Source: a virus | Direction: 5' to 3' (one strand) | IMG/VR virus record: IMGVR_UViG_3300025483_000052 | Span: 1-28,620 of that record | DNA: 28,620 nt | In this document: in pieces, positions 22,011-27,231 of the stretch | Layout: each line of letters starts with the position of its first letter | How positions within the stretch are numbered: position 1 is the stretch's first letter | Program-made: the position numbers and the translations under genes | The notes under the pieces: generated by a model | The model's input: the letters and a program-made list of their open reading frames with translations, nothing else | The model's database searches: none | Told to the model about the DNA's origin: nothing

Positions 22011-22042
22011 GAATAAAAAACCAAATTATAAGGAAACCACAA

Positions 22043-23917
22043 ATGCTATCCTTTAAAGATTTACAAGAAGTGCTACAGCCAAAAGCTGCTGGCGAGAAAC
22101 GTTTTAAAGACAAACACGTTGCTGATACCATCGATTATCCACTAAATGACGCTGAAATCAATAAGGGTACAAAGAAGTCTCCTGCAAAGAAGAAGCGTAT
22201 TGCTGATAGTGAAGAAGGTAAAGACGCTGCTGTTTATGAGGAACTAGAGCAGCTAGAGCAGGATGATTTGAACGATCTGATGCAATATGCATTAGATGAG
22301 GGTTTGAATTTTCACGAACTTACTGAAGAGCAATTAGATGAACTTATTGCTGGGCTTATCAAAAAAGGTGTCAAAAAGGTAGGTGGCGCTATTAAAGGTA
22401 GAGTTACTACTTCTGGCAGAGCCGACAGGCTTAAAAAGAAAGCTACCGCACTTCAGAAAAAGAGAGATGATAAAAATACTATCAGAAAAAGTAAGATAGA
22501 CATACGGAAAGCTAAATCAGGTATAAAAAGAGACGCCCGAAGTGGGACAGATAATAGAGAAATGGCGAGAAAGCGCCTTCAGAAGGCGCAGGCTAGGCGA
22601 AACGAAGAGATGACTCCCGATCAAGAGAAGAAGCGGGAAGAAATCGTTATGGCTATGAAGAAGGATAAAGAGAAGCTACAGTCTCGCTATGGCGAAAGCT
22701 GGAAGGCTGTAATGTATGCTACTGCTACAAAGCAAGCGATGAGTGAATCTTTTGAACTTGACGAAGCATTAAATCCAAAAGATAAAAAGGTTGTAGATGC
22801 GTTCTATGATGGTAAGTCTATGGATGGTAAAATGTTATCAACTGATGGAAAGAAGTTAGAGAAAACTGGAATGGGTGGTCAAACAATTGCATCTAAATCT
22901 GGCAATAAGTTCAAGATTGTTGCAAAAATGGATAGTAAGTCTACTCAAGATGTAGTAAAGTATATTGAAAAATCATTTCCCAAAAATGTAATTGAAGAAG
23001 TCGAACTTGATGAAGCCCTACCTCCACATCTTGCCAAGTATATTGGAAAAGATGGAGATTTCACACCAGAAGTGAAGAAGCGGTTAGGAAAAGATTCTAT
23101 GAAGAGAATGCAAGTTCCTTCTAAAAAGAAATCTAACGTTAAAGATGTTACACCAAAGGGCTATGGTCCAGATGAAGAACTGGATGAAAGCGCAGCGGGT
23201 ATTGCTCAACTCAAAAAAGCATATGAGCCACTGCGTGATAAGAAAATTAGTTTAGATAACGCTAAGAAGCTATCTGCTATTATGGATAAGTTTGCTGACG
23301 ATAAAGCAATGCTTATGAAGTTAGTCAAAGCAGACATTCCTTTTGTGACTCAAAGCGCAGTTACAAAACTTATTACGAAGCACAATATGAAGGGTGCTGA
23401 GATTAATAAGATGATGAAGGAAGAAAGGGCCTTAACAACTGATGCTCGTTATAAAACATTTAGAGAAAAATTGTTGAAGTTGGGCTATCAGAAAGCTGAT
23501 ATTGATGAAAAAGCCCCTAAAATAAAATTTGATGATATTATGAATAGAAAAGAGAAGCCAAAAACTTATCAAGTCGATATTGATGGTGGTAGAGCAACAG
23601 TAACCGCTGCTAGTGAAAAAATGGCAATTCAAAAAGCTATGACTCAGATGAAAATCAACAAGAGCATTAAACCTCTTCCTAAAGCTACAGTAAAGGTTAT
23701 GGAAGAAGTTGACCTTGATGAAGCGTTCAAGATTAACCCTGTCAACGTTAAACTTGATGATGGCAGCATGGTAAAAATCTCAAAGGATGATGCTTCTGCT
23801 CTGAATGGTCTATACAATTCGCTGAACCCAGCAAATGCAAAGACGATGATTAAAAAAATGATGCAAGATAAAAAAACATATGGTGAAATCCTTGCATTCG
23901 CCAACCAAGCAATGTAA
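22043..23917 (+). CDS. Large modular prohead-core polyprotein (624 aa), gene 68 position
   Basis: The N-terminus (SFKDLQEVLQPKAAGEKRFKDKHV) is like core proteins encoded between 67 and 21 in marine T4-like phages. T4 has only the 141-residue gp68 here. Residues about 115-235 are very basic and helical and end with RYGESWKAVMYATATKQAM, a motif I know from such phages. Then similar linkers recur: FELDE-A, VELDE-A, EELDE-S and DLDE-A, at cut positions after E241, E324, E382 and E560. An IDE-K occurs after E489. L/I-x-E is the cleavage rule of the T4 prohead protease gp21. Between the sites lie small, separate-looking domains of 83, 58, 178 and 64 residues. I infer a core polyprotein cut during head maturation, with its fragments kept as internal head proteins or lost. 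AAGGA precedes the ATG. Confidence 0.72.
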   Translation: MLSFKDLQEVLQPKAAGEKRFKDKHVADTIDYPLNDAEINKGTKKSPAKKKRIADSEEGKDAAVYEELEQLEQDDLNDLMQYALDEGLNFHELTEEQLDELIAGLIKKGVKKVGGAIKGRVTTSGRADRLKKKATALQKKRDDKNTIRKSKIDIRKAKSGIKRDARSGTDNREMARKRLQKAQARRNEEMTPDQEKKREEIVMAMKKDKEKLQSRYGESWKAVMYATATKQAMSESFELDEALNPKDKKVVDAFYDGKSMDGKMLSTDGKKLEKTGMGGQTIASKSGNKFKIVAKMDSKSTQDVVKYIEKSFPKNVIEEVELDEALPPHLAKYIGKDGDFTPEVKKRLGKDSMKRMQVPSKKKSNVKDVTPKGYGPDEELDESAAGIAQLKKAYEPLRDKKISLDNAKKLSAIMDKFADDKAMLMKLVKADIPFVTQSAVTKLITKHNMKGAEINKMMKEERALTTDARYKTFREKLLKLGYQKADIDEKAPKIKFDDIMNRKEKPKTYQVDIDGGRATVTAASEKMAIQKAMTQMKINKSIKPLPKATVKVMEEVDLDEAFKINPVNVKLDDGSMVKISKDDASALNGLYNSLNPANAKTMIKKMMQDKKTYGEILAFANQAM

Positions 23918-23928
23918 GGGAGAGAGCA

Positions 23929-24219
23929 ATGGCAGCAATCAAAATTGTAGCAAACACAGTAGCAGTAACAACGACTCATGCTGAAATTACTGATAGTAGA
24001 ATTCAAAGAATTTACAATAGTAACACAACCGTTGTTGCGAATGTAGAGTTTGGTGCAAACAGCACTGCGGTCACTAAGATGATTACTGTTGGTCCCGGTG
24101 CTACTGTCATGGTAGATGTTGGATCACTCAGAGATGGTGATGCTGGTGATCAAGAAATACATATTAGTCTAAACGCAGCATGTAACCATGTTTACAGAAC
24201 ACCAGTTTCAAACGGTTAG
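23929..24219 (+). CDS. Small beta-rich protein of the prohead cluster (96 aa)
   Basis: The ATG follows AGGGAGAG and lies 11 bases after the previous stop; the gene 21 ATG follows 9 bases after its own stop. The sequence is rich in Val, Thr and Ala. It has alternating strands (KIVANTVAVTTTHAEI, RIYNSNTTVVANVEF, MITVGPGATVMVDVG) and ends HISLNAACNHVYRTPVSNG. There is no signal peptide or membrane segment. T4 has no gene here apart from 68. The fold guess is a small beta-sandwich, compatible with a capsid-decorating or head-internal protein, but no family is recognised and the role is inferred from location only. Confidence 0.6.
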   Translation: MAAIKIVANTVAVTTTHAEITDSRIQRIYNSNTTVVANVEFGANSTAVTKMITVGPGATVMVDVGSLRDGDAGDQEIHISLNAACNHVYRTPVSNG

Positions 24220-24228
24220 GACAAGGCA

Positions 24229-24897
24229 ATGAAATTAATCTGCGAAGTAAACGATGATGTTAAATACATCACAGAAGCTGCTGAAGATGGTAAGCCTAAA
24301 AACTACTTCATTGAAGGCGTCTTTATGCAAGGCGACCTCAAGAATCGCAATGGGCGTGTCTATCCTTCTGAAGTTATTGCGAAAGAAGTGAAGAGATATA
24401 ATAAAGAATTCGTAGAGAAGAATAGAGCTTTTGGTGAACTCGGACATCCTGATGGACCAACCATCAACCTTGAACGAGTATCACATATGATTACTGACTT
24501 GCATCAAGAGGGTTCGAACTTTGTTGGTAAAGCAAAGATTATGGACACTCCAATGGGTAAGGTAGTAAAAAATCTTATGGATGAAGGTGCTACACTTGGA
24601 GTATCGTCTCGTGGTATGGGATCAATTAAGCCAACCAAACAAGGTATTATGGAAGTGCAAGGTGATTTCATGCTTGCTACTGCCGGTGATATTGTTGCTG
24701 ATCCATCTGCTCCAGACGCTTTTGTAAAAGGTATTATGGAGGGGTCAGAATGGATTTATGATATCGCTTCTGGTAGCTGGATGCGGGAACAAGTGGTCGA
24801 ACAGATGGTTGCAGAGACCAAGAAACTTTCACCTCGCAAACTTGAGGAACAAAAGTTCAAACTATTCGCAAAATTCTTAAATAATATTTCAAAATAA
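24229..24897 (+). CDS. 21: gp21-like prohead core protease
   Basis: A 222-residue protein with the T4-type prohead protease pattern (Peptidase_S77): GVFMQGDLKNRNGRVYP, GELGHPDGPTINLERVSH with H73 as likely catalytic His, LGVSSRGMGS with S126 or S127 as nucleophile, and AGDIVADPSAPDAFV with D154 or D158 as possible third residue. The spacing from His to Ser agrees with T4 gp21 (H85, S140). It cuts core and capsid proteins after the L/I-x-E rule before packaging. AAGG lies before the ATG. The 624-residue protein two genes upstream carries repeated LDE sites that fit this enzyme, as does gp23 downstream. Confidence 0.95.
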   Translation: MKLICEVNDDVKYITEAAEDGKPKNYFIEGVFMQGDLKNRNGRVYPSEVIAKEVKRYNKEFVEKNRAFGELGHPDGPTINLERVSHMITDLHQEGSNFVGKAKIMDTPMGKVVKNLMDEGATLGVSSRGMGSIKPTKQGIMEVQGDFMLATAGDIVADPSAPDAFVKGIMEGSEWIYDIASGSWMREQVVEQMVAETKKLSPRKLEEQKFKLFAKFLNNISK

Positions 24898-24947: not shown

Positions 24948-25904
24948 ATGTCAGATCAAGAACTTGATCAGTTAGACGAATTGAAAGCATCTGCTGGGGA
25001 TGAGTCCGAAGTAATGGACCCAACCCCAGTTAATGCTAAGAAGCGTAAAGCTGACAAAGCAACCGCTAAAGAAGCCGCTGATGCGGAAGATAATGACGAA
25101 GATGACGAAGATGACGAAGATGAAGAAGATGACGAAGCAAAGGTCATTAAAGCATCTGCAAAGAAAAAGGCTGGTAAATCTATGGACGAAGCAGTAAACG
25201 AAATCTTTAGTGGTGAAGACCTATCCGAAGATTTTAAAGAAAGAGCTGCTGTTCTCTTTGAGACAGTTGTTCTAGAGAAAGTTAATGTCGAAGTCGAACG
25301 CCTAGAAGAAGAATTTTCTTCTAAGCTAGACGAACAGGCAGAATTAGCAACAGAAGACCTCACTAAGAAGGTTGACGCATATCTAGATTATGTTGCAGAA
25401 CAGTGGATGGAAGAAAATACGCTTGCAGTTGAAAGCGGCATTCGTTCCGATATTGCAGAGTCCTTCATCGCTGGTCTCAAAGAACTTTTCTCAGAGCATC
25501 GTATTGATGTACCTGAAGAAGAAGTCGATCTGGTCGCTGAAATGGCAGAGAAGATCGAAGAGCTTGAAAAGAGCCTCAACGAACAAATCGATACTAATAT
25601 CGAGGTTTCCAAAGAGCTTGATGAAGCTAAGAAGTCCGATGTATTTGATACCCTTTCCGAAGGCCTCGCATACACACAGGCTGAAAAGCTGCGTTCACTT
25701 ACGGAAGGTCTAGAATATGTAGACCTTGATGATTACAGCCGTAAGGTCGAAATCATCAAAGAAAACTATTTCGGCAAATCAGCAATTGTTGAAGAGACAG
25801 ACGAATTAGACCCAGTAAATGAGGAATCAGATACAAAGTATGTTGATCCTCAGATGGCGCTATACGCTAAATCTATCAGCAAGACTTTTAGAAATATCAA
25901 ATAA
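24948..25904 (+). CDS. 22: gp22-like major prohead scaffold protein
   Basis: Gene position between 21 and 23 and the highly charged, helical composition identify the scaffold. The protein is 318 residues (T4 gp22 is 269). It has an extreme acidic block at residues about 48-62 (DNDEDDEDDEDEEDDE) after a Lys-rich segment. Long coiled-coil regions follow, then a conserved C-terminal part with DTLSEGLAYTQAEKLRSLTEGL, VEIIKENYFGK and YAKSISKTFRNIK. It fills the prohead core and would be degraded by gp21, and it contains several L-x-E triplets. CTAAGGAG precedes the start. The acidic block is longer than needed for the family core and probably accounts for the extra length. Confidence 0.93.
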   Translation: MSDQELDQLDELKASAGDESEVMDPTPVNAKKRKADKATAKEAADAEDNDEDDEDDEDEEDDEAKVIKASAKKKAGKSMDEAVNEIFSGEDLSEDFKERAAVLFETVVLEKVNVEVERLEEEFSSKLDEQAELATEDLTKKVDAYLDYVAEQWMEENTLAVESGIRSDIAESFIAGLKELFSEHRIDVPEEEVDLVAEMAEKIEELEKSLNEQIDTNIEVSKELDEAKKSDVFDTLSEGLAYTQAEKLRSLTEGLEYVDLDDYSRKVEIIKENYFGKSAIVEETDELDPVNEESDTKYVDPQMALYAKSISKTFRNIK

Positions 25905-25950: not shown

Positions 25951-27231
25951 ATGTTAAACGAAGAACTAAACACCAAGTGGCAGCCTATTCTGGAGCATCC
26001 AGACCTCGAAGGGATTAGCGATCCACATAAGAGAGCAGTAACTGCTATTATTCTAGAAAACACACAAGTGGCTTTGAGAGAAGGTAGTGCTTGGTCAACC
26101 AACACACTACTTAACGAAACACTAGCGAACAACATTGGTGACGGCGCAACTAACGTTGACACTTATGATCCCGTTCTTATCTCTCTCGTTCGGCGCTCTA
26201 TGCCAAACCTGATGGCTTATGATATCTGCGGCGTTCAGCCAATGACTGGTCCTTCTGGTCTCATCTTCGCTATGAAGTCTCGCTTCGCTAACACAGCTAA
26301 CCTTCTTGACACAACGCAAGAAGCGCTGTTCAACGAAGCTGATACCGACTTCTCTGGTACAGGCACACACGCTAATGCTCTCGGTGCTGGTTCCGAAACA
26401 ACGGGTACTGGCGTAACTACAGCTAATATGGAAGCCAATACTGCTTACGAAGAAATGGGTTTCACAATCGACAAGGTTACTGTTACAGCCAAGTCTCGTG
26501 CGCTCAAAGCAGAGTACACAACTGAACTAGCACAAGACCTAAAGGCTATCCACGGTCTTGACGCTGAGACAGAGCTTGCTAACATTCTTTCTGCCGAAAT
26601 TCTTGCAGAAATCAATCGTGAAGTTATTCGTACAATCTATCACACAGCTAAAGCTGGCGCACAGAGCGACACAGCATCCGCTGGTACTTTCGACCTAGAC
26701 GTTGACTCTAATGGTCGTTGGAGCGTCGAGAAGTTCAAAGGTCTCATGTTCCAGATTGAGCGTGAAGCCAATGAGATTGCCAAGCAGACCCGTCGTGGTA
26801 AGGGCAATGTTCTAATTTGCTCTTCTGATGTTGCTTCTGCTCTTCAGATGGCAGGTGTTCTAGATTACGCTCCTGCTCTTGCTAACAAGCTAAACGTTGA
26901 TGACACAGGCAACACATTTGCTGGTGTTCTAAACGGTCGCATGAAGGTCTATATCGACCCATATGCAGGCGCTAACTACATGATCGTTGGCTATAAGGGT
27001 TCTAGCGCATTCGATGCTGGTATCTTCTACTGCCCATACGTTCCATTGCAGATGGTTCGTGCGGTTGGCGAAAATAGCTTCCAGCCTAAGATCGGCTTTA
27101 AGACTCGCTACGGCATGGTCGCAAATCCGTTCGCTACTTCGGCTGGTGACGGTGTTATTGACAACACGAGTCCTTCTTCTGCTAACCAGAACATCTACTA
27201 TCGCAGAGTGGCTGTTTCTAACATCATGTAA
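25951..27231 (+). CDS. 23: gp23-like major capsid protein
   Basis: The protein has T4-type HK97-fold capsid landmarks: YDPVLISLVRRSMPNLMAYDICGVQPMTGPSGLIFAMKSRF, then MGFTIDKVTVTAKSRALKAEYTTELAQDLKAIHGLDAETELANIL, and GVLNGRMKVYIDPYAG, VGYKGSSAFDAGIFYCPYVPLQM near the end. It forms the hexamers of the head. The N-terminal part should be removed by gp21; a candidate site is L54-N55-E56, just before the conserved NIGDGATNVDTYDP region. It is 426 residues against 521 in T4. AAGGAG lies before the ATG. Codon use here, with more C-ending codons, looks more optimised than in the fibre genes. A strong terminator follows. Confidence 0.97.
   Translation: MLNEELNTKWQPILEHPDLEGISDPHKRAVTAIILENTQVALREGSAWSTNTLLNETLANNIGDGATNVDTYDPVLISLVRRSMPNLMAYDICGVQPMTGPSGLIFAMKSRFANTANLLDTTQEALFNEADTDFSGTGTHANALGAGSETTGTGVTTANMEANTAYEEMGFTIDKVTVTAKSRALKAEYTTELAQDLKAIHGLDAETELANILSAEILAEINREVIRTIYHTAKAGAQSDTASAGTFDLDVDSNGRWSVEKFKGLMFQIEREANEIAKQTRRGKGNVLICSSDVASALQMAGVLDYAPALANKLNVDDTGNTFAGVLNGRMKVYIDPYAGANYMIVGYKGSSAFDAGIFYCPYVPLQMVRAVGENSFQPKIGFKTRYGMVANPFATSAGDGVIDNTSPSSANQNIYYRRVAVSNIM

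Follow-up and report, generated by a model that had tools for sequence, protein, structure and literature searches.

Why should a T4-like phage encode a 624-residue protein between its portal gene and its prohead protease gene, where T4 has the 141-residue gp68? The question is raised by P0001, the product of an open reading frame (ORF) in a 28.6-kb uncultivated virus, a T4-like marine phage (IMG/VR record IMGVR_UViG_3300025483_000052, positions 1 to 28,620; this whole stretch of 28,620 nucleotides is called the window). P0001 found no match in Pfam, in PADLOC, among PDB sequences or, at E ≤ 0.001, in PHROGs. We consider it probable that the protein is a capsid-targeted prohead-core polyprotein, expanded by the insertion of modules and cut by the phage's own protease, gp21. 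The arguments come from the joints between its modules, from shorter relatives at the same place, from the exchange of modules at these joints and from its N-terminus.

Joints and modules of P0001

T4 gp21 cuts after L/I-x-E (PMC9026906). A first-pass annotation of the window had read P0001 as a row of small modules separated by such sites, and all five joints that it named are present (FELDE-A242, VELDE-A325, EELDE-S383, IDE-K490 and DLDE-A561), as is the gp21 gene two genes downstream, recognised by a Peptidase_S77 match beyond a 96-residue ORF. The four LDE[AS] observed (0.045 expected) and the five [LI]DE[ASK] (0.16 expected) were not reached in any of 20,000 shuffled versions of P0001. 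Two more LDE, overlooked in that annotation, lie within the first module (LDE/G at 86 and LDE/L at 100). The N-terminal block is made up of a conserved EKRFKDKH domain, an optional insert (about residues 68-187, missing from the relatives L003, L005 and L007; L-numbers label the contig loci of relatives) and a KREEIVMAMKK...MYATATK domain. Past residue 241 the predicted pieces have 58-107 residues and isoelectric points of 8.8-9.7, to be compared with 76 residues and 9.0 for IPI* of T4.

Each of the five joints is placed in predicted coil or in a low-confidence stretch of the model, which lends weak support to a protease-site role of the joints, the whole model having a predicted local distance difference test score (pLDDT) of 57 and a predicted template modelling score (pTM) of 0.24. 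Because of these two values the Foldseek search of the whole model against the PDB, which returned nothing below E=0.87, is uninformative. Modelled alone, the 83-residue module reached a pLDDT of 59.

Relatives and minimal proteins in the same slot

Scanning viral contigs yielded 51 loci that encode relatives, nearly all between gp20/gp67 and gp21, a place that we call the slot and that is conserved in almost every one of some 40 loci compared for gene order; three of the 51 (L002, L033 and L034) represent a second locus, treated below. A second scan was anchored on gp21, so that the slot was sampled regardless of similarity to the polyprotein. Slot proteins span 130-839 residues, and their length follows the number of joints (Spearman rho 0.80, 45 distinct proteins). 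Among the shortest are gp65 of Sinorhizobium phage phiN3 (135 residues), L102 (136), L093 (176) and L039 (177). These minimal proteins consist of an EKRFKDKH-type N domain and a C domain with a FAK-type ending, which usually meet at one [LI]xE joint (LTE/M, LDE/A, IAE/D); the extra modules of the long proteins lie in between. P0001 aligns to the profile of the minimal proteins with an hhalign probability of 99.8%, and phiN3 gp65 (L170:3917-4324) matches it at 99%. Moreover, phrog_26626, a PHROGs family with no assigned function, matches the minimal relatives, and L075, L087, L088 and L022 match via the N domain. Both phrog_26626 and phiN3 gp65 thus belong to the same minimal slot family and differ from P0001 in having no inserted modules. 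The phage that encodes gp65 is cultivable, and the gene product is annotated just as a hypothetical protein.

The C-domain joint can be located by homology rather than by motif. Its P1 residue is glutamate in 18 of 19 distinct strings and its P3 residue is L, I or M in all, whereas P2 may be D, S, E, T or M; four strings from another gene or C-domain subfamily are left out of this count. Conservation of LDE in relatives, which the first-pass annotation had made a test of its proposal, is borne out in the form [LIM]xE. The consensus of the joint across 56 distinct upstream modules is K-E-E-V-[ED]-L-D-E-A. Compared with shuffled sequences, [LI][DE]E[AS] is enriched in the slot proteins (54 vs 3.3), in gp22 (39 vs 13.9) and in gp21 (13 vs 2.4), and not in gp20 (5 vs 6.3), gp23 (0 vs 2.7) or gp18 (0 vs 1.4). 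Processing in T4 affects gp21 and also gp22, which yields several fragments, but spares gp20 (PMC9026906, PMC5694885). In the slot proteins L/I-x-E sits at conserved places that are predicted to be exposed, as would suit gp21 substrates. From the motif, its position, the capsid-targeting-like N-terminus and the predicted disorder we infer that gp21 cuts these joints.

Gain, loss and exchange of modules

Among relatives, modules are gained and lost mostly at the LDE joints, as had been proposed; the alignments, a count of breakpoints, a shared DNA cassette and the relation of length to joint number agree in this. In global pairwise alignments of 13 close relatives, 95 of 192 breakpoints lie at most 8 residues from a joint (31.8 expected), although kin sequences are treated here as separate and the counts are not independent. 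The ends of ungapped BLAST matches had been tried as breakpoints, were too noisy and were replaced by these alignments. Cut at the joints, close relatives appear as different strings of the same parts. For example, L005 has an additional 77-residue module ahead of the C domain, and in L007 the second module is another one and two 55-residue modules are added; the AKYELYHKD and AQKMFMFKTK modules are found in L011 and L022, the former twice in L022.

The 83-residue ALNPKDKK module was also found in a different gene, which encodes a 929-residue protein on L144. The two copies are about 95% identical over 249 bases; the identity starts at the first base past the left LDE and ends just past the right LDE codons, and the flanks are unrelated except for the linker. 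Because its DNA identity has edges at the LDE codons, this module behaves as a DNA unit bounded by joints. A tblastn search with the TLASY module, of the L014 type, matched no named phage.

The N-terminal peptide

P0001 begins with MLSFKDLQE/V, a start with its own L-x-E that escaped the first-pass annotation, as did the relatives of 135-177 residues. In alignment A1 its E9 reaches at least 90% conservation. The T4 record gives the start of ipIII as MKTYQEFIAEA, and the N-termini of the relatives (MKTYKQLIAEV in L102, MKTYKEIISEV in L082, MKKFQAFIKEV in L028 and MKTFKDIINEV in L093) are closer to it than is that of P0001. Targeting of IPIII is governed by residues 4 and 7 and its processing by residues 8 and 10 (PMC9026906); all four have counterparts in MKKFQAFIKE of L028. 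With a slightly looser pattern, 20 of 35 distinct slot starts are targeting-like, a few of the 35 probably not being the slot gene. In its stricter form the pattern is found in 3 of 182 ORFs of phage HTVC008M and at 3 of its 797 internal methionines. An N-terminal targeting peptide ending in L/I-x-E is recognised by resemblance only, and the N-terminus speaks well, though not conclusively, for head targeting.

The probable polyprotein reading and alternative explanations

On the polyprotein reading, a two-domain core protein of about 135-180 residues would be the origin, with a targeting-like start, the EKRFKDKH domain, usually one [LI]xE joint and the C-terminal domain; extra folded modules would have been inserted at the joint. 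The N-terminal peptide probably docks the polyprotein to the core, and gp21 would cut after the [LI]xE sites within the prohead, giving mostly basic peptides of about 7-12 kDa. Recombination would add, drop and swap modules in frame, also with the second polyprotein gene; such in-frame exchange is possible because each module ends with its own cut site.

Several observations weigh against this reading, besides the dependence among breakpoint counts mentioned above. The loose motif [LI]xE is not enriched in P0001 (10 vs 5.9 expected, shuffle fraction 0.055); since it does not exceed chance there, its count was dropped as evidence, and the signal is the stereotyped joint rather than mere glutamates. 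In L089 the natural joint has lost its P1 glutamate (ESTELDG/VFKAG), and a minority of slot proteins, such as L030, L041 and L111, have another C-domain linker without a clear site. Some breakpoints fall away from LDE (at residue 67 behind VYEE, around residue 186, and behind KMMKE at about residue 460), so that of the expandable cassette with protease-site flanks the exchange of whole modules, mostly at joints, stands, and a flanking site at every boundary does not. The targeting-peptide pattern is short, loose and not specific, as it also fits UvsX of HTVC008M. Finally, CTT encodes the joint leucine in 36 of 47 distinct modules, whereas its share elsewhere in these genes is 27%, and the upstream KEEV is conserved though the protease rule does not need it. 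With such uniform codons and the conserved KEEV, the linkers also look like shared DNA words fit for recombination. The codon uniformity supports the earlier suggestion that repeated linkers aid module exchange, and part of the joint conservation may serve DNA exchange.

If this were the whole story, the linkers would be recombination anchors only, short shared DNA words without proteolysis. The codons, the conserved stretch upstream of the protease motif and the movement of modules between genes, with edges at the linker, all suit such anchors. We nevertheless find this unlikely. A DNA anchor does not explain why P1 and P3 are kept, because P2 and the surrounding residues differ (LTE, ISE, IEE, LME, MDE); gp22 and gp21, which in T4 are established or presumed targets of gp21, share the enrichment of the motif, which gp20, gp23 and gp18 lack; and an [LI]xE joint is present already in the minimal protein. 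Moreover, a protease-site role and a recombination role of the linkers are mutually compatible. Repeated short acidic motifs can mediate multivalent binding, so that the LDE repeats might instead bind scaffold or capsid like beads on a string, the protein working uncut. The predicted disorder at the joints would suit this as well, but LDE fits the gp21 rule and matches the site, likewise within the rule, that ends the targeting-like peptide; its P2 position is unconstrained, just as the rule allows, and it sits at the joints between domains. We hold binding to be very improbable. As a possible natural uncut variant, the LDG/V joint of L089 deserves mention.

The fate of the pieces is a separate matter. 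In T4 the core fragments mostly leave the head, while the internal proteins (IPs) stay and many are ejected (PMC9026906). The pieces could be cut as proposed and be scaffold or space-filling debris that leaves the prohead like most gp22 and gp67 fragments of T4, the modules not being cargo. We take this as a sizeable possibility, an estimate that concerns the fate after cutting and overlaps with that for the polyprotein reading: the slot corresponds to a core protein and not to an IP gene, and no module matches a recognisable enzymatic or counter-defence family. The N-terminus, on the other side, resembles that of the T4 internal proteins, which are retained in the head; the modules are basic and have the size of IPs; and close relatives differ in the modules that they contain, which is closer to a changing cargo than to a geometric scaffold. 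More tentatively still, at least two capsid-targeted polyprotein genes might trade the modules, each with its terminal protease site, as DNA cassettes; gp21 would free them in the head, and they would be ejected together with the DNA as internal proteins whose set changes, one conceivable use being to counter host defences. Their variable content fits cargo; with no recognised family or function assigned to any module, delivery into the host is put forward as a possibility.

Comparison with known systems

That the gene stands in the place of T4 gene 68 holds for position (gp20, gp67-like, slot gene, orf96, gp21, gp22, gp23) and not for sequence homology. As a candidate homologue T4 gp68 was rejected, hhalign against gp68 of phage RB3 giving a probability of 0.6% and E=0.099, and the slot gene is 'gp68' by position only. 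The T4 proteins gp67, gp68 and gp22 share with the slot protein the gene position (gp20-67-[68]-21-22-23) and, as we read it, the head interior; in T4 they are cut into fragments by gp21, whereas cutting of the slot protein is predicted. The minimal relatives are about the size of gp68, whereas slot proteins reach 839 residues and have exchangeable modules. Cyanophages have been reported to lack both gp67 and gp68 (PMC2984593).

With IPI-IPIII and Alt of T4 the slot proteins share a 9-10-residue N-terminal peptide ending in [LI]xE (MKTYKQLIAE vs MKTYQEFIAE) and basic pieces of similar size. Each T4 internal protein has one gene and one targeting peptide, whereas here several modules, joined by repeated sites, share one peptide. 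The internal proteins of T-even phages form a highly diverse defence set that shares only the targeting sequence (PMC3012670). According to the parts of two papers on which we draw (PMC5694885, PMC9026906), head-interior proteins of phiKZ and SPN3US are extensively processed after a glutamate motif by the gp21-like protease gp175/gp245; these parts describe a propeptide that is removed, sometimes at several sites, and no swappable module cassette. Polyvalent proteins of phages combine several domains in shuffled arrangements; packaging and possibly processing have been predicted for them, and they have been likened to viral polyproteins (Iyer et al. 2017, PMC5512222). They have recognisable enzymatic domains and often an embedded peptidase, whereas the modules here are small and unrecognised and gp21 would act in trans; Pfam and PADLOC gave no effector or peptidase domain in P0001. 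By its architecture the slot protein resembles a viral polyprotein cut in trans, and by its N-terminus it resembles the internal proteins. A swappable-module layout of gp21-processed head proteins was not found described in the open-access literature searched.

A second polyprotein locus

A comparable polyprotein gene adjoins or closely follows a cytidyltransferase-like gene in L144, L145, L033, L034, HTVC008M (gp132), Cr30 (gp064) and P-TIM68 (gp159). In L149 and in phage Melnitz it follows a long ORF in a similar position; that of Melnitz begins like the L144 nucleotidyltransferase, and that of L149 was matched to no such identity. Polyproteins of this second family share modules with the slot gene. 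Members from isolates have few or no LDE[AS], yet [LIM]xE is present at some domain boundaries, and the tight LDE-A/S linker is for this reason a trait of the uncultivated group. No virion proteome of HTVC008M or P-TIM68 bearing on the polyproteins was seen in the literature searched.

Neighbours in the second locus (L144:585-3692, L145:724-1008, L033:294-1520 and L144:7597-8109) also have targeting-like starts: MKKFSELIE/A (a nucleotidyltransferase fusion of 1036 residues), MKTFKGLLE/S, MIKFKSFITE/E (a DUF6267 protein) and MKTLLQMTE/V (an NT5C-type nucleotidase). The operon as a whole looks as if it were head-targeted. In addition, the end of the L149 polyprotein (L149:1578-3278), EDNMSAYTAAITKGVK, resembles the C-termini of gp22 at several loci, among them those of phage Mosig, AMAAYTAAISKTK, and of the window, QMALYAKSISKTF; this shared tail is possibly core-binding.

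Gene neighbourhood

The window encodes, in this order, the tail sheath, tail tube, portal gp20, a gp67-like protein, P0001, the 96-residue ORF, gp21, gp22, gp23 and a tail-tube-like protein (Table 1). The nearest named capsid proteins, those of HTVC008M, Melnitz and DLP6, are about 64-66% identical. Its gp21 is 38% identical to that of RB3 across 143 residues, including the GEL-HP and GVSSRG stretches. By eye, LNE/T of gp23 corresponds to FLTE/AEIGG in RB3, MIAE/Q in S-SM2 and FLSE/A in Mosig. Both comparisons are in line with the joints being protease sites. Family searches with the 96-residue ORF gave no match; a small ORF of similar size and place before gp21 is found in many marine T4-like phages (89 residues in S-SM2, 105 in DLP6).

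Table 1. Features of the P0001 locus and polyproteins of the second family; positions refer to the window unless a contig locus is named.
Feature	Position	Strand	Evidence or remark
gp67-like prohead core gene, 73 aa	21789..22010	+	phrog_1064 'prohead', E=2.5e-5; order kept in relatives
Likely ribosome-binding site AAGGA, 8 bases ahead of ATG	22030..22034	+	direct sequence reading
Modular polyprotein gene, 624 aa, stop codon counted	22043..23917	+	51 related loci
Capsid-targeting-like peptide MLSFKDLQE, putative gp21 site L7-Q8-E9/V10	22043..22069	+	resemblance to T4 IPIII
N-terminal block, residues 10-241	22070..22765	+	alignment A1; hhalign to minimal proteins 99.8%
Joint 1, FELDE/A242	22757..22765	+	
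Module ALNPKDKK, 83 aa	22766..23014	+	also in second polyprotein gene (L144, L145, L149)
Joint 2, VELDE/A325	23006..23014	+	
Module ALPPHLAK...DVTPKGYGP, 58 aa	23015..23188	+	AQKMFMFKTK...DVTPKGYGP instead in L011, L022
Joint 3, EELDE/S383	23180..23188	+	
Module SAAGIAQLKKAYEP, 107 aa, predicted helical	23189..23509	+	core recurs in HTVC008M gp132
Joint 4, ADIDE/K490	23501..23509	+	IDE/A or LDE/A in relatives
Module KAPKIKF...ATVKV, 71 aa, predicted alpha/beta	23510..23722	+	missing in L008, L011, L019
Joint 5, VDLDE/A561, ahead of C-terminal domain	23714..23722	+	homologous to single joint of minimal proteins
Conserved C-terminal domain AFKINPV...EILAFANQAM, 64 aa, pLDDT ~85	23723..23914	+	
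96-aa ORF between polyprotein and gp21 genes	23929..24219	+	
gp21 prohead protease	24229..24897	+	Peptidase_S77, E=3e-36
gp22 scaffold	24948..25904	+	phrog_237, T4_CASP
LNE/T in gp23 at mature N-terminus position	26110..26118	+	comparison by eye with RB3, S-SM2 and Mosig gp23
Second-family modular polyproteins, LDE-type joints	L144:3700-6486; L145:4527-6872; L149:1578-3278; L033:3744-5141; L002:4338-5453		

Implications

Sinorhizobium phage phiN3 encodes a minimal version of the protein (gp65), and the isolates HTVC008M, Melnitz, P-TIM68 and Caulobacter phage Cr30 carry modular proteins of the second kind; since both versions are found in isolates, the question is open to bench testing. If the polyprotein reading is true, the slot protein would be a bacterial-virus counterpart of the polyprotein logic of RNA viruses, with one targeting signal, many cargo modules and one maturation protease acting in trans. 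It would explain how head-internal proteins diversify in T4-like phages outside the T-evens without a gene and a targeting peptide for each cargo, and dozens of unannotated small domains, whatever functions single modules may have, would become candidate ejected proteins.
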